This document shows, piece after piece, positions 14,643-24,924 of a stretch of DNA of 36,613 nt. The stretch spans positions 1-36,613 of the forward strand of contig JAIULZ010000028.1 in assembly GCA_022565805.1 (NCBI GenBank), given 5' to 3'. The stretch's first letter is position 1. Every line of letters starts with the position of its first letter. The DNA comes from Balneolales bacterium. Lineage in GTDB: Bacteria; Bacteroidota; Rhodothermia; Balneolales; Cyclonatronaceae. Made by a program: the position numbers and the translations under genes. Under the pieces are notes generated by a model. The model ran no database searches. It was not told where the DNA came from and was given only the letters and a program-made list of their open reading frames with translations.

Positions 14643-16706
14643 ATGTTGACAATTCATAATATAACGCTTTTTATTTCAAATTTCTGCATTTTCTCCAAAC
14701 TAAATTTTCAGGCTAATAAAGGAGACAGAGTCGGGCTTGTGGGTCCGAATGGTGCGGGTAAAACTACATTACTCCGGCTTATAGCCGGCCGATACGAACC
14801 CGAGGAGGGGTCAGTCGATTTTCAGAGCGGTGCCACAGTGGGCTTTCTGGAGCAGGATGTGCTCGAACTTAGCCTTAATCAGTCGGTAAAGGCATTTTCT
14901 ATGCAGGCTTTTAAAGAAGTAAAGCAGATTGAGGCCCGGCTTACCGAAATTGCTCAGAAAATATCCGACGAAACAGACTATGAAGGTGAAGCTTATCTTA
15001 AGCTGTTAGAAGAAATGGAGCGTCTTAATAATCGATTTACCATGCTTGAGGGAGATCGTATAGAATCCAAAACAGAGGAAGTTTTGGAAGGCCTTGGTTT
15101 TTCTACGGAAGAACTTTCACAACCTCTCGAACGGTTTAGCGGTGGCTGGAGAATGCGTGCGGTTCTTGCTAAACTTTTGCTATCAAGACCCGATATTTTA
15201 ATGCTGGATGAGCCTACAAACCATCTCGATATCGATTCTATCGAGTGGCTGGAAAACTATCTTAAAGCTTATGAAGGTGCAGTTGTAATCGTGAGTCACG
15301 ACAGGTTTTTTCTTAATAAGATGGTAAACCAAATTGCGGAGTTACGAAACAAAAAGATTTTTACCTACACTGGTAACTACGATAAATTCGAAATACAGCG
15401 GGCCGAGCAGGTAGAACAACAACAGCGTGAATTCGACGCTCAGCAGCGCGAAATTGCAGAAACAGAGCGCTTTATCGAGCGTTTCAGATATAAGGCTACT
15501 AAAGCCCGACAGGTGCAGAGCAGGGTGAAGCAGCTGGATAAGATAGATCGTATCGAAGCACCGGATTCTTCGGCAAAGCAGATGGCGTTCCGGTTTCCCG
15601 AGCCTCCACAGTCGGGTAAAGTGGTTATGGAAGTTAAAAAGCTATTGAAAACCTATTACACCTCAGATGATTTGCCCGATGTTCCGGTTTTTACTCAAGC
15701 GCAGGATTTACATATCGAAAGGGGAGACAAAATTGCCCTTATTGGGCCCAATGGAGCCGGTAAATCTACTCTTGCCCGAATACTTTTTGGAGAAGAACCT
15801 TTTAGCGGCGAACGGATCGAGGGGCATAATGTAATGACTACCTTCTTCGCGCAGCATCTTGCCGACGTGCTCGAGTCTGGCCGTACTGTTATCGAAGAAA
15901 TGGAGTCGGATGCACGCACAAGCGAGATTCGCAGCCGTATTCGCACCATACTCGGGAGCTTTCTTTTCTCGGGTGATGATGTCTTTAAACCGGTATCGGT
16001 ACTCAGTGGCGGCGAGCGCGGGCGGGTTGCTCTGGCTAAAACCTTGCTACAGCCAGCCAATTTTCTAATTTTGGATGAGCCTACAAACCACCTCGATATG
16101 GCCTCGAAAGAAGTGCTTATTCAGGCTCTGGAAGAATATCGCGGAACAGTGCTTGCTGTAAGTCACGACCGCTATTTTCTTTCCCGATTTGCAACAAAAA
16201 TATGGAGAGTCGAGGGAGGACGCGTTTTTGAGTATGAAGGTGGCTACGATTATTATGAGTGGAAACGTGAACAGCAGGCCAAAGAGGTATCAGCTAAGAA
16301 TGCCGCTGAAAATGCATTAAATGCTAAAAAAAGTAATGATACAAACGACAGGAGTAAAGATTCTGATAGCGATGCATTAGAAAAAAAATCGGGTCCTAAG
16401 TCTAAGGAGCAAAAACGAATGGAGGCCGAAATTCGCCGTAAATATGGCGAAATAAACCGAAAAATTCGTAATGAGGTGGAAAAGTTCGAAAAACAAATTC
16501 AGCAGCTTGAGCAGGAGAAAAAGGTTCTTGACGAGCAGCTTGCAGATGCCGGGTTTTATCAGTCTCCTGAGGCTGCCGCTGCGATTCGCAAACACAGTGA
16601 GATCATTACAAAAATCGATAAGGTTACCGAAAAATGGGCTGAGGCGTCAGAAGAGATGGAGCGTATGCTTGCAAAACAGGAAGAAGATATTCTTGCAGCA
16701 GGTTAG
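14643..16706 (+). CDS. ABC-F family ATPase
   Basis: Cytosolic protein of 687 residues with two ATP-binding cassettes and no membrane domain; ABC-F proteins act on the ribosome, in translation quality control or antibiotic protection. First cassette: Walker A GPNGAGKTT near residue 36, signature FSGGWRMR, Walker B ILMLDEPTNHLD. A linker rich in Gln, Glu and Arg (about 250-310) is the P-site tRNA interaction motif region. Second cassette: GPNGAGKST near 366, LSGGERGR and FLILDEPTNHLD. A charged linker (about 545-585) leads into a coiled-coil C-terminal domain (about 590-685) like that of Uup and YdiF. This points to the Uup/YheS/YdiF housekeeping side rather than to resistance factors, but the exact subfamily is unsure. 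The ATG at 14643 gives the normal N-terminus. Confidence 0.93.
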   Translation: MLTIHNITLFISNFCIFSKLNFQANKGDRVGLVGPNGAGKTTLLRLIAGRYEPEEGSVDFQSGATVGFLEQDVLELSLNQSVKAFSMQAFKEVKQIEARLTEIAQKISDETDYEGEAYLKLLEEMERLNNRFTMLEGDRIESKTEEVLEGLGFSTEELSQPLERFSGGWRMRAVLAKLLLSRPDILMLDEPTNHLDIDSIEWLENYLKAYEGAVVIVSHDRFFLNKMVNQIAELRNKKIFTYTGNYDKFEIQRAEQVEQQQREFDAQQREIAETERFIERFRYKATKARQVQSRVKQLDKIDRIEAPDSSAKQMAFRFPEPPQSGKVVMEVKKLLKTYYTSDDLPDVPVFTQAQDLHIERGDKIALIGPNGAGKSTLARILFGEEPFSGERIEGHNVMTTFFAQHLADVLESGRTVIEEMESDARTSEIRSRIRTILGSFLFSGDDVFKPVSVLSGGERGRVALAKTLLQPANFLILDEPTNHLDMASKEVLIQALEEYRGTVLAVSHDRYFLSRFATKIWRVEGGRVFEYEGGYDYYEWKREQQAKEVSAKNAAENALNAKKSNDTNDRSKDSDSDALEKKSGPKSKEQKRMEAEIRRKYGEINRKIRNEVEKFEKQIQQLEQEKKVLDEQLADAGFYQSPEAAAAIRKHSEIITKIDKVTEKWAEASEEMERMLAKQEEDILAAG

Positions 16707-17215: not shown

Positions 17216-17965
17216 ATGCAGGACAATCTCCAAAAACAGAGATTTGAATTTAAATATCATGTTGATGAATACACCGCCCTGCAAATTAGGGAGTTCGTAT
17301 CATCTTATCTCGAATTGGATGCTTTTGGAGCTACACAGCCCAATTTTTCCTATCCGGTACACAGTTTATATCTCGATTCCAGAGATTATAAAACCTATAT
17401 GGATACAATTAATGGAGAGAGAAACCGCTTTAAATTAAGGATTCGTTATTATGAAGCTGGGGATAATGAGCCAGTCTATTTCGAAATGAAGCGTCGAATG
17501 AATGCCATAATCTTAAAAAAAAGAGCAAAAATCCAGCGCGCATCCGTACCGGCAATTCTTTCCGGCCATTTTGCACGCAAAGAAGACTTTGCTAATTATT
17601 CCGAAGACGAGGCAGAGTCGATGAACGACATCAGCATGTACATTAACCAACTACATGCGCAGCCGCGGGTTCACGTTTCTTATATAAGGGAAGCATGGAT
17701 GGCTAATGGTACTAATAAAATACGGGTAACGCTCGATCGAAATGTACGCAGCGATGCGGTAGACGAACTCACATTTAAGAAAGAGATGATTCGCCCAGTT
17801 GATGTTTTTGGTGATGATGTTATTCTCGAGCTTAAATTTACCGATCGATTTCCAGACTGGTTCAAAACGATGGTTCAGGTTTTTGGTCTGCGACAAGAAT
17901 CTGCCGCAAAATATGTAGATGGGCTAATTCATCTCAGAGACACGCACCAAATTGGGTTACCATAG
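17216..17965 (+). CDS. VTC-domain polyphosphate polymerase-like protein
   Basis: A 249-residue cytosolic protein made up of one VTC domain, the catalytic fold of the eukaryotic vacuolar transporter chaperone that makes polyphosphate from ATP. The tunnel-lining charged segments are all visible in order: QRFEFKYHVD (10-18), YPVHSLYLDSRDYKTYMD, NRFKLRIRYY, VYFEMKRRM with ILKKRAKI, VHVSYIREAW, RVTLDRNVRS and, near the end, VILELKFTDRFPDWF. Bacterial proteins of this type have only this domain and are called polyphosphate polymerase domain proteins; activity is inferred. It heads an operon: the DUF4956 gene follows after 49 bases and a HlyD-like gene 2 bases after that. No SPX domain is present. 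Confidence 0.9.
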   Translation: MQDNLQKQRFEFKYHVDEYTALQIREFVSSYLELDAFGATQPNFSYPVHSLYLDSRDYKTYMDTINGERNRFKLRIRYYEAGDNEPVYFEMKRRMNAIILKKRAKIQRASVPAILSGHFARKEDFANYSEDEAESMNDISMYINQLHAQPRVHVSYIREAWMANGTNKIRVTLDRNVRSDAVDELTFKKEMIRPVDVFGDDVILELKFTDRFPDWFKTMVQVFGLRQESAAKYVDGLIHLRDTHQIGLP

Positions 17966-18014
17966 AACTTTTTGCTGTTTTTTCAAGTGCTTATAACATT
18001 AGAGAAGTAATTTT

Positions 18015-18701
18015 ATGAACGAATGGATTTTTTTCGGTGATACGGCTCCTCTGCCTACCGATATTCCAACACTTATTTTAGGTTTGCTGCTTGCATTTAT
18101 ATGCGGGCAGCTTATATCCTGGGTGTATATGTTTACGCACTCGGGTTTGTCTTACTCCAAAAACTTTGTTAATTCGCTTATTATCCTGCCAATAACGGTT
18201 GCTACGGTAATGACCGTGTTAGACAATAATCTTGTAACGGCTTTTAGTTTACTTGCCGTATTTGCAATTGTGCGATTTAGAAATATTGTAAGAGACACGC
18301 TCGATGCCATTTATATTCTTAGTCTCATCGTAATTGGCATGGCATGCGGTACTCAAAAGTTTACAACAGCACTTATCGCAACCCTTATAATGGGCAGTAT
18401 TTTACTCTATCTTTGGTTTACTTCTTTTGGAAGCAGACAGCGCTATGATATGATCCTTAATATTACCTACAGGGCCAGCAGGGCGAAAGCGGGCGAGCTG
18501 CTTCAGCTACTAAACAGGCATGCTTTACGATTAACTTTAGTAAGCGAAAGAATGAATTCCAGTTCCGAAATGACCGATGCATCCTACCGGATTTTATTGC
18601 GAGACCCAAACCGATCTGATTTGATGATTAAAGAAATCAATGAGTTCGAAGGTGTTGACAGGGTAAGCGGAATGAAGGCTCAGGACGAATCGGAGGTATA
18701 A
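18015..18701 (+). CDS. DUF4956 integral membrane protein
   Basis: A 228-residue protein of the DUF4956 family, which is repeatedly found beside VTC-domain genes in bacteria. The first ~135 residues form about four membrane segments (near 22-42, 54-74, 76-98 and 104-132 by hydrophobicity), with the conserved FAIVRFRNIVRDTLDAIYI between them. The C-terminal ~90 residues are soluble and look like a small alpha/beta domain (NITYRASRAKAGELLQLL ... ISYR-type strands). Function is unknown; context suggests that it anchors the VTC polymerase at the membrane or forms part of a path for its product. It overlaps in spacing with the next gene: stop TAA at 18699-18701, next ATG at 18704. Confidence 0.88.
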   Translation: MNEWIFFGDTAPLPTDIPTLILGLLLAFICGQLISWVYMFTHSGLSYSKNFVNSLIILPITVATVMTVLDNNLVTAFSLLAVFAIVRFRNIVRDTLDAIYILSLIVIGMACGTQKFTTALIATLIMGSILLYLWFTSFGSRQRYDMILNITYRASRAKAGELLQLLNRHALRLTLVSERMNSSSEMTDASYRILLRDPNRSDLMIKEINEFEGVDRVSGMKAQDESEV

Positions 18702-18703
18702 AA

Positions 18704-19810
18704 ATGGCTTCAGACTTTAATGGAAAAAAATACGAGCCGGTTCCTATTCCCGCATCCACAAAATGGCGCGAATTCAGAATTCGAATTATTCCGATACTCA
18801 TTTTTCTTGCGGCTGTACTAATCATTTTTTTCCTCTGGGAAAGAAGAGTGCAGAGCCCCGACTTTATTGGTTATGTTTATGCTCCGCAATATGTTATAAC
18901 CGCACAGGCCGATGGCATTATTAGCGAAATTTACGTGCAGGATTTTGATAAAGTTGAGCATGGAAGCCCGGTCGCGCAGATTAAGCGTGGATTAGCAGAA
19001 GAGTTAGAGGCCAGACTGGCTTTAATCAACTCGGAAATTAATCACATTTTGACAAGCGGATACCCGGCAGAATCGGCTGTTCGTGCCTATGTAGATTTGT
19101 TAGGGTTAAAAACAGATGCGGCAGAAATGAGGGCCGAAAGAGCAGAGCTTAGGGAGCAAATTCTTTTCCTGGAAGCCAATTTCCGCAGACAAGAGCAGCT
19201 GTTTGCCTCAGGATTTTCTGAGCAGGTCGCTTTTGAGCTTGCAGAAGCAGAAATGAAGGCTGCCAAAGCCCGCATGGAAGAGCTTAATGCAGAAATAATT
19301 GAATTGGAAAAAAGCATAAGCACGGCTATGGAAATGGCCGACTTAAACAGTAGTAGCCGCGCAGATATGATAGAAAGCGCTGTTTCTGTACAGCGGGTTC
19401 TTGTTCAACTTACCGAAAAAGAATTTGGCTCTTATCAACTTAATAGCAGTGGTTCTGGTATTGTTCAGTTTATGAAACGATCTCCCGGTGAATTTGTAAG
19501 CAGAGGAGATACCATTGCTGTAGTGCAATCGCCCAGACCGGAATCAATAATTGGCATGATTCGGCAGCCTCTGTCTATTAGCCCCGAACCGGGAATGATG
19601 GTTGAGATTCGAAGCCGGAAAATTCAAAGAAACCGGTATACAGCACAGATTAGTAACGTTGGGGGGCAGTTTCGACCAATAGATCAAGCTATGCAACGCC
19701 CCGGCTTATCGTTCGAAAGTGGCTTGCCGGTGCGTATCGAGTTAAGTAGAGAAACTGATTTTGATTTTATTCCTGGAGAATTTGTGGATCTAATCCTGAT
19801 GCGTAATTAG
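18704..19810 (+). CDS. HlyD/membrane-fusion-like adaptor protein
   Basis: A 368-residue protein with one N-terminal membrane anchor (about residues 30-48) after a basic cytoplasmic tail, then a biotinyl-lipoyl-like half (YVITAQADGIISEIYVQDFD), a long alpha-helical hairpin rich in Glu, Ala and Arg (about 95-215), the returning lipoyl-like half (SGIVQFMKRSPGEFVSRGD) and a beta-barrel end (PGMMVEIRSRKI). This is the layout of membrane-fusion proteins of the HlyD/EmrA class, which sit in the periplasm and link an inner-membrane pump to outer-membrane exits. No pump or TolC gene is next to it. GGAGGT at 18692-18697 provides a good ribosome site, overlapping the end of the DUF4956 gene, so translation is probably coupled. 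Pairing with VTC and DUF4956 is the unusual point. Confidence 0.85.
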   Translation: MASDFNGKKYEPVPIPASTKWREFRIRIIPILIFLAAVLIIFFLWERRVQSPDFIGYVYAPQYVITAQADGIISEIYVQDFDKVEHGSPVAQIKRGLAEELEARLALINSEINHILTSGYPAESAVRAYVDLLGLKTDAAEMRAERAELREQILFLEANFRRQEQLFASGFSEQVAFELAEAEMKAAKARMEELNAEIIELEKSISTAMEMADLNSSSRADMIESAVSVQRVLVQLTEKEFGSYQLNSSGSGIVQFMKRSPGEFVSRGDTIAVVQSPRPESIIGMIRQPLSISPEPGMMVEIRSRKIQRNRYTAQISNVGGQFRPIDQAMQRPGLSFESGLPVRIELSRETDFDFIPGEFVDLILMRN

Positions 19811-22917: not shown

Positions 22918-24924
22918 TCAATTCTCAACTTTGTTTGGCCGTTGTTGCTTCTTTGCATAATCGTGGAAAATCGTAAGTTTGCGCAGTGTTTTGTTAAAAA
23001 GCTGTGATACGCGCGGCCGGTGGTCTTTTGTGTGCAGCTTAATTAGCCCGGCATCCCAAAGCAGACCTTCTTCTCCGCTTTTTAAGCCTTTTTTTGTCCA
23101 TAAGCTATTGAAAATAAATAGCAGGGTGATGTTGAGATATTTTGCAAACAAACCGGTATGCTTTAATTTAACGGAGCTTTGTTCAGGTGCTGATTCCGGT
23201 AAGTTCGGGAAGAATTCTCGTATCCAGGTGTTTTGGTTTCTGAAATGAGGAGTTCCTGTTTTTATGAAAACCTTTCTCAGAAACAGGATTTGAAAGGCGG
23301 TGTAGTAATCCCGCTGCCAAAAAACTTCCTGCCTGCTTTCATCAATCAGGTAGTTTGAGCATAGTGTATTTTTTTTGCCGCTAAGCAGTGCAAGCAGGCG
23401 TATTGAAATAAGACTTAGCCAAACATAGTTTTTTTTAGAAATAACGAGTAAATCCAAATCCGGCCGGGAAAGCGACGAGTTTTGATGCGAGGTGCCCCCC
23501 GAAAAGTAAACCGCCCGAATCCATGGTATAAAACCCAGTATTTTTAGCAATTTTCTGTGTTCCCGCCTGAACCTTGCTTCATTCCATGCGTCCGCATTTC
23601 TTTTGCCTGCTATTGTGCTCAGTATCAGTTTTGTGTTTTTGTTTTCTAATGCGAATTCTTTGCTATAGGTACTAAGCAATAGCATGAGCGAGTTTCTGAG
23701 CTCATTATCAGTTGCGGGGTAGGGGTGGCACAGACGGAGCTTGCTCTTCGAAATAGAGGCCCCAAAAACGGAGGCATAGGAAACACTTGAAGCAATTGCA
23801 AACGTGTTGTTAAGTAGTTTCTTATCATACAGAGCATTGTTCTTGGGCATATAAAAAGATGTTCCACCCTTTAAATAGCTGCATATCTGTGGTAGCATTT
23901 TTCCCGGTGAGTTTTCCTCCCACTTCTTTTTTTGTATGCGCAGACTTTCTCTGTAATGAGGAGATTCGGGCTCCGATAGCTGCTTAAGCCCATCAATTAT
24001 ACTTTGGTTTGAATGTGCACTGGCTGTAATGGCACAGTTACCGGCAATTTCCTTAAGAGCTGGATCTTCTGAAATGAGTACCTTTTTTCCGGCATTCAGG
24101 GCATCCATTACAGGAAGACCAAAACCTTCTTTATGGCTTACAAGAACAAGCCCCGAGCAAAACATGAGTAAGTCCCCAAGCTCTTGCTGGCTCACAAAAC
24201 CTTTGTATTCGCAATTTGGCGTGCGTTGAATTTCTTCTGAAATGCTTTTTTTCCATGTTTCGGATCCATGTAGTTTACCGGCTAAAACCAAGCTTATATT
24301 AGGATTCAAAAAGTTGAAATCCCGGAACGCCTTAAGTAAAGAAAGTATATTTTTTTTAGGCTCGATATTTCCAACATAAAGCAAATACGGCTGACGCGTA
24401 ACAGGAATCGGATTTTCGAACTGCATGGGAGTATCCGGATTGTGTACTATAATACGTCCAGAATCGGCTCCTAAGTAATGGATGATATCATTTTTCGACG
24501 CCTCGCTTACCGTTAAAATAACTCTTGCGTTCTCTACAGAGTGTCGTATTCGTCTGCTGTACCAGGCGACCATTTTACGGCTGTAAAATTGCGGATGCGT
24601 AAGAAAAGATACATCATGTATAGTTACTGCAGAGGGAATGGGCCATGCGAGCGGCATAAAATAATTCGGGAAAATGCTGGCGTCGGCAGCAATTCCTGTC
24701 TGATTACCGGCGAGTGTCCAGTTTAGAAATAAGTGTCTGTTAGGGTGTTGTTTACTCAGGTGAAGATGCTTGGTAAACCGTTCTGTGTCTTGAGATAATA
24801 CAAACTCTGACGACTCCCTTATGGCATCTATCATCGCTAAAGTATACCTGCCAGTACCGCTAAATTGCCCAAAAAGCGTTGTGGGCTCAACGTAAATGGT
24901 TTTCATTCTCTGCATCGCGCTCAT
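22918..24924 (-). CDS. Glycosyltransferase family 4 fused to a nucleotidyltransferase-like domain
   Basis: A 668-residue two-domain protein. Residues ~7-350 are a GT-B glycosyltransferase of family 4: TLFGQFSGTGRYT, TIHDVSFLTHP (101-111), LLYVGNIEPKKNILSLLKAF (181-200), YKGFVSQQELGDLL and the donor site SHKEGFGLPVMDA. In that site the usual EX7E is E266-X7-D274, a conservative change. After a linker (~350-440), residues ~450-560 show the polymerase-beta nucleotidyltransferase pattern FSGG(476-477)-X11-DLDLLVI with Asp489 and Asp491, and a helical tail to 668. The fusion suggests one protein that transfers a sugar and a nucleotide or nucleotide-linked group, or a nucleotide-gated transferase. 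Three starts are possible (24924, 24915, 24906); the last gives MKTIYVEPTTLFG, which looks most natural. It faces the kinase-like gene. Confidence 0.85.
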   Translation of the reverse strand: MSAMQRMKTIYVEPTTLFGQFSGTGRYTLAMIDAIRESSEFVLSQDTERFTKHLHLSKQHPNRHLFLNWTLAGNQTGIAADASIFPNYFMPLAWPIPSAVTIHDVSFLTHPQFYSRKMVAWYSRRIRHSVENARVILTVSEASKNDIIHYLGADSGRIIVHNPDTPMQFENPIPVTRQPYLLYVGNIEPKKNILSLLKAFRDFNFLNPNISLVLAGKLHGSETWKKSISEEIQRTPNCEYKGFVSQQELGDLLMFCSGLVLVSHKEGFGLPVMDALNAGKKVLISEDPALKEIAGNCAITASAHSNQSIIDGLKQLSEPESPHYRESLRIQKKKWEENSPGKMLPQICSYLKGGTSFYMPKNNALYDKKLLNNTFAIASSVSYASVFGASISKSKLRLCHPYPATDNELRNSLMLLLSTYSKEFALENKNTKLILSTIAGKRNADAWNEARFRREHRKLLKILGFIPWIRAVYFSGGTSHQNSSLSRPDLDLLVISKKNYVWLSLISIRLLALLSGKKNTLCSNYLIDESRQEVFWQRDYYTAFQILFLRKVFIKTGTPHFRNQNTWIREFFPNLPESAPEQSSVKLKHTGLFAKYLNITLLFIFNSLWTKKGLKSGEEGLLWDAGLIKLHTKDHRPRVSQLFNKTLRKLTIFHDYAKKQQRPNKVEN

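Follow-up and report, generated by a model that had tools for sequence, protein, structure and literature searches.

The window is a 36,613-nucleotide stretch of a Balneolales genome (GCA_022565805.1, contig JAIULZ010000028.1). We focused on three consecutive genes within it, which are listed below together with the start region of the third.

17216..17965, + strand: gene for a predicted VTC-domain (TTM) polyphosphate polymerase; 249 aa, no SPX domain, no transmembrane segment; PF09359
18015..18701, + strand: gene for a DUF4956 inner-membrane protein; 228 aa, about five transmembrane helices and a C-terminal ACT-like domain; PF16316
18691..18706, + strand: ribosome-binding site and start codon of the adaptor gene, CGGAGGTATAAAAATG; overlaps the end of the DUF4956 gene; read directly
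18704..19810, + strand: gene for a HlyD/membrane-fusion-type periplasmic adaptor; 368 aa, one N-terminal transmembrane anchor; HlyD_3 and Biotin_lipoyl

The original prediction described these genes as one operon of VTC, DUF4956 and HlyD-like families lacking a pump ATPase. Coordinates and open reading frames agree with its layout. The genes share a strand and are separated by 49 bases (VTC/DUF4956) and 2 bases (DUF4956/HlyD). The predicted ribosome site of the adaptor is present, with GGAGG lying inside the 3' end of the DUF4956 gene, and all three families were matched by Pfam. The neighbouring ATPase, encoded upstream at 14643-16706, matches ABC_tran and ABC_tran_Xtn. We take this combination to indicate a soluble ABC-F type protein, not a transporter. 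Hence, no pump gene lies beside the adaptor. Pfam identified no cognate ABC, RND or MFS pump near the adaptor within the window, and neither a TolC nor a CotH gene accompanies the trio there. The window operon also contains no glycosyltransferase recognised by Pfam; its polymerase is a TTM protein. Elsewhere in the window, positions 22918-24924 encode a 668-aa protein with a family-4 type glycosyltransferase domain in its N-terminal half and about 330 residues outside any recognised Pfam family in its C-terminal half. VTC and DUF4956 are each represented by one gene in the genome.

The VTC match covers the whole protein (130.7 bits, E 8.4e-38, profile positions 2-231 of 235). The 249-aa protein is the VTC domain alone. 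It contains no hydrophobic segment, SPX and DUF202-type membrane subunits are absent, and its membrane partner is DUF4956. In PDB profile matches, the bacterial VTC profile fits Vtc4, the catalytic subunit in yeast, better than Vtc2 or Vtc3. Vtc4 tunnel residues K200, R264, R266, K281, R361, R373, E426, K428 and K458 correspond to K13, R75, R77, K92, R158, R170, E205, K207 and K232 of the window protein. All nine are present, and each is conserved in 162-165 of 165 homologues. R264, R266 and E426 are the residues mutated in an inactive Vtc4 complex (PMC9911596). Because the tunnel residues are intact and Vtc4 is the better profile match, the best reading of the window protein is a predicted polyphosphate polymerase.

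DUF4956 scored 40.8 bits against a Pfam cut-off of 30.6. An AlphaFold2 model built from a 56-sequence alignment (pLDDT 83.5, pTM 0.70) has about five membrane helices followed by a beta-alpha-beta domain. The best solved Foldseek matches to this C-terminal domain are ACT domains, including the C-terminal domain of MgtC (2lqj). Between helices 3 and 4 is an invariant Arg-Phe-Arg motif (R87-F88-R89). It would face the cytoplasm, and could plausibly form the entrance for a polyanion, if the ACT-like domain lies on that side of the membrane. Likeness to MgtC/SapB is structural in the ACT-like domain and weak in the membrane part. The window protein is unmatched by MgtC (PF02308), and one relative reached 15.3 bits, under the cut-off of 31.4. 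The operon context also differs from that of MgtC/SapB. The published description of a Streptococcus intermedius DUF4956 homologue likewise combines MgtC and ACT parts and gives it four transmembrane segments (PMC12345266).

The adaptor matches HlyD_3 (PF13437; 33.1 bits, cut-off 22.2) and Biotin_lipoyl (23.6 bits), with its N-terminal anchor at residues 22-50. AlphaFold on the single sequence gave a poor model (pLDDT 49.6), which was left out of interpretation. In adaptors of this kind, an RxxxLx6S tip motif docks TolC. Such tips occur in 20/26 and 12/26 relatives' adaptors, compared with a chance expectation of 6-8%. The window adaptor has RQEQLFASGFS, one residue shorter than the canonical motif.

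We next consider conservation among 60 relatives, half of which encode VTC. Of 30 loci from these relatives, 27 keep the order VTC>DUF4956>HlyD; in the remaining three, the contig ends within the cassette. Flanking genes vary by family: the window's genus has RadA and ABC-F, family f3 has CotH and T9SS proteins, and f5 has other genes. Since the order is kept in all uncut relatives while the flanks differ, the trio is not a chance association. A conserved HlyD-like third gene beside VTC/DUF4956 was the test set by the original prediction, and it was found in every uncut locus. A profile of the window adaptor family matched 28 of the 60 relatives, and each of these has VTC. The two further relatives that have VTC but no match are genomes with DUF4956 at a contig end. 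The profile matched none of the 30 VTC-negative relatives, though dozens of first-look candidates were scored in many of them. As matches are confined to VTC-positive genomes among these relatives, the adaptor is, judged by sequence profile, dedicated to the VTC cassette. One relative (G048, locus L051) carries VTC-DUF4956-HlyD-CotH twice in tandem.

Across the phylum, VTC occurs in 56 of 394 genomes. All 56 encode DUF4956, while VTC is not found in every DUF4956 genome. A HlyD-type adaptor accompanies 35 of the 56 VTC loci and a DUF2490 outer-membrane barrel 15; no locus has both and six have neither close by. In other orders of the phylum, the adaptor gene usually comes first (HlyD>VTC>DUF4956). 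This upstream type is a second, very distant adaptor family, homologous to that of the window (hhalign 99.1%). An apparent 787-aa VTC fusion at L122 proved to be a frame artefact, the true upstream adaptor lying in another frame. The VTC tree splits the locus types, with 11 label changes against 59 in shuffles. Loci L128-L148 are of the Bacteroidia type, VTC-DUF4956-DUF2490, with the barrel in the adaptor's place. L130 and L133 have a divergent DUF4956-CotH-VTC layout with neither adaptor nor barrel, and their two VTC proteins are set apart by a very long branch. A secreted SdiA-regulated/phytase-like protein, possibly a phosphate-related surface protein, adjoins DUF4956 at L100:6377-7180, L115:6451-7254 and L114:9438-10208.

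CotH, a family of cell-surface kinases, is the most constant partner of VTC/DUF4956 and was missing from the earlier reading. Among VTC-positive genomes, 54 of 56 encode it, compared with 80 of the 338 that lack VTC (Fisher p 8e-27, uncorrected for phylogeny). Within the window's order, DUF4956 and CotH occur together in 29 genomes, DUF4956 only in 1, CotH only in 3 and neither in 19. Six CotH genes are present in the window genome, all of them outside the window and unlinked to the trio. By eye, several of the encoded proteins end in a T9SS-like NPF tail. Roughly half of the loci from relatives include a CotH gene, in many cases for a lamin-tail/CotH protein that ends in a T9SS sorting tail. 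Following CotH in the VTC-DUF4956-HlyD-CotH operons of L034 (1767-4385), L037, L039, L040 and other f3 loci is a conserved secreted protein of about 870 aa, with a T9SS tail and outside any recognised family.

A set of CotH, poly-P polymerase and DUF4956 genes has been reported beside Gram-positive pel clusters (PMC7112168). In S. intermedius, SIR_1592-1594 are the CotH/VTC/DUF4956 genes of the Pel locus (PMC12345266). Hence, the CotH association identifies the trio as an extension of a cassette already reported in Gram-positives. The 2025 authors did not find this synteny outside the Pel locus (PMC12345266). In contrast, it is widespread in the present loci, which lack recognised pel genes. 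The Clostridium perfringens genes CP4_0461 and CP4_0464 of NELoc-2 are annotated as 'tubulin/FtsZ' (PMC2879425). They lie beside VTC and CotH, resemble DUF4956 in size and membrane location, and are probably mis-annotated DUF4956 genes.

We compared these loci with a mostly monoderm set, obtained by scanning GTDB contigs with a Bacillota-centred DUF4956 alignment. The 80 resulting loci are nearly all from Bacillota, with some from Coriobacteriia and one each from Woesearchaeota and Caldisericia. VTC, DUF4956 and CotH occur together in 76 of them. MBOAT, GGDEF, glycosyltransferase and deacetylase genes are among the neighbours of the monoderm loci. Neither adaptor profile matched any of the 80 loci, and HlyD is absent among the 25 most populous of 105 Pfam families in 72 neighbour proteins of this set. 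Because the adaptor belongs to the diderm unit and is missing from the single-membraned version, the data suggest that the polymer, or phosphate from it, is handed to the cell exterior, although two lineages are being compared here rather than many independent losses of the outer membrane. Similarly, the addition in diderms of an adaptor, TolC-type channel or outer-membrane barrel, with the adaptor absent from the mostly monoderm set, points to a substrate that leaves the cell.

TolC-type genes occur in related cassettes, in two cases within the operon. The VTC operon of G114 (L126/L275) is ordered CotH-DUF4956-HlyD-OEP-VTC-CotH. Plasmid NZ_CP095062.1 of Hymenobacter volaticus carries HlyD-DUF4956-TolC. 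A further 17 genomes of the window's order have a DUF4956-HlyD-TolC-like cassette lacking VTC (L250-L266; G013, G016, G022, G025, G030, G034, G038, G040, G042, G049, G051, G053, G057, G216, G220, G290 and G344). Here, the gene after the adaptor encodes a secreted helical protein of 411-442 aa. Using 13 of the 17, we found this protein to be homologous to OEP (hhalign 95.8%, against less than 2% for controls) and the adaptor to be homologous to the window family (98.7%). The fourth gene of these cassettes encodes a short-chain dehydrogenase, which rules out the 245-258-aa product as a hidden VTC. Most also have a similar neighbourhood of YceI, DUF6580, 3-methyladenine glycosylase and BrkB. In a second group, 420-455-aa genes downstream of DUF4956 were considered as TolC; for the three scanned with Pfam this was ruled out (a decarboxylase, a Cys/Met enzyme and an aspartyl protease). 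CotH is present in all 17 genomes with the VTC-less cassette and PPK1 in all 13 of these that were tested. The window genome itself encodes PPK1, as do most relatives, and several unlinked OEP proteins.

We tentatively favour, at somewhat less than an even chance, polymerase-driven and pump-less export of polyphosphate via DUF4956, the adaptor and an unlinked TolC, with the trio being the diderm form of the CotH/VTC/DUF4956 system. Judging by its fold and intact tunnel, VTC would use ATP to build polyphosphate on the cytoplasmic side of the inner membrane. The growing chain would be threaded through DUF4956, with synthesis driving translocation. Such coupling has been shown for the yeast VTC complex (PMC9911596). 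Anchored beside DUF4956, the adaptor may span the periplasm to a TolC-type outer-membrane channel, which is unlinked here. With DUF4956 and TolC bridged in this way, a pump ATPase would not be needed. The chain or its phosphate could then reach the surface, where secreted CotH-family kinases act; that CotH makes use of polyphosphate is speculative. We infer DUF4956 as the conduit, polyphosphate as the product and the unlinked TolC as the exit. The original prediction offered two options; one, a signal of polymer level sent through the periplasm, may still hold, and the other had an anionic polymer being made and passed outward. This latter option gains from the intact Vtc4 tunnel residues, from a conserved adaptor absent from the mostly monoderm set and from TolC-type genes in related cassettes; what it overlooked was the CotH partner. 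Our literature search found no experiment that demonstrates polyphosphate synthesis or export by any bacterial VTC/DUF4956 pair.

The main rival to polyphosphate export is that DUF4956-HlyD-TolC is a real exporter of some other phosphorylated or anionic compound, VTC making or priming the substrate in some lineages. The VTC-less cassettes imply that the export unit may carry something else, or that the polymer is made elsewhere. That their 17 genomes all encode CotH, and that DUF4956 accompanies every VTC and not the reverse, favours another substrate. However, VTC belongs to the unit in most loci, its catalytic residues are invariant, and the VTC-less genomes could use polyphosphate made by PPK1. 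We consider this alternative unlikely. A hydrolase, or a non-catalytic scaffold like Vtc2 or Vtc3, in an operon unrelated to polyphosphate synthesis, would fit the fact that the TTM fold also houses hydrolases, and bacterial VTC branches share only 20-30% identity. Such a role is very improbable given R264, R266, E426 and six further near-invariant tunnel residues, and the preference for the Vtc4 profile over Vtc2/3.

The published deletions in S. intermedius bear on the remaining alternatives. Loss of DUF4956 or CotH gave an aggregation phenotype and a changed Pel level, whereas loss of VTC had no reported effect on aggregation (PMC12345266). This difference counts against polyphosphate export, as do the shortened tip of the window adaptor and its lack of linked TolC or CotH genes. 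Pel output rises, rather than falls, in the DUF4956 mutant (PMC12345266), as might be expected if DUF4956 were a sensor or regulator. In that case, the ACT domain would sense the level of polymer or nucleotide and the adaptor would be a periplasmic strut controlling surface enzymes such as CotH, with no export. The ACT-like domain itself and the weak MgtC likeness of the membrane part (one relative, as above) lean the same way; an MgtC-plus-ACT resemblance could point to a regulatory role and against export. A lone strut, however, needs no TolC-type partner, yet OEP genes lie in the operon in several lineages, and a role in crossing the envelope would agree with the lack of the adaptor in the monoderm set. 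We therefore judge pure regulation to be quite unlikely. The altered Pel levels of both mutants, the position of the cassette within Gram-positive pel clusters (PMC7112168) and the MBOAT, GGDEF and other genes listed above around monoderm loci would also fit a polymer that serves surface polysaccharide assembly, with polyphosphate or phosphate modifying or ionically condensing an exopolysaccharide. Against this, no pel genes were recognised in Bacteroidota loci with scanned neighbours, and flanks vary between families, making this role decidedly doubtful.

Polyphosphate export, our preferred reading, can be extended. The system may be a polymerase-powered tripartite exporter that places polyphosphate at the surface as a supply of phosphate and energy for extracytoplasmic CotH-family kinases. 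DUF4956 would be the common gate, with VTC, adaptor, TolC or barrel added according to envelope type. This fuller proposal is rather unlikely to hold as a whole. If true, it would explain the activity of surface kinases in a place without ATP, and would provide a testable phosphate source for them. Export itself, if confirmed, would be a first pathway by which bacteria send out polyphosphate in a regulated way, and a pump-less use of HlyD adaptors, in a cassette family that is widespread.

The proposed system can be set against known ones. Like the yeast VTC complex (Vtc1/3/4), it has a polymerase of the TTM family with the same tunnel residues and a membrane partner, and synthesis-coupled translocation serves as the model. 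Unlike that complex, it has no SPX or DUF202-type Vtc1 domain, with DUF4956 and a periplasmic adaptor instead, and export would be outward rather than into a vacuole. Tripartite efflux and type I secretion systems (HlyD or AcrA with TolC and a pump) share the adaptor family, the TolC-type genes of related cassettes and the tip motif of many members. Here, however, DUF4956 and VTC take the place of an ABC, RND or MFS pump. Synthase-dependent alginate secretion by Alg8 and Alg44, the latter with an MFP-like periplasmic domain, likewise lets the polymerase drive export, uses an adaptor-like protein in the periplasm and does without a pump ATPase. The fold of the window polymerase differs from this, and its product is presumed to be an inorganic polymer. 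Closest are the Gram-positive pel-cluster cassettes, in which VTC and DUF4956 are also adjacent and accompanied by CotH. By comparison, the window has a HlyD-type adaptor, a diderm host, no recognised pel genes nearby and unlinked CotH, which is linked in relatives. The original prediction knew of no described three-part system of this form without a pump. We likewise found no description of the adaptor-bearing diderm form in the literature. We conclude that the adaptor-bearing trio appears to be new and that its CotH/VTC/DUF4956 core is already known from Gram-positive Pel clusters (PMC7112168, PMC12345266).
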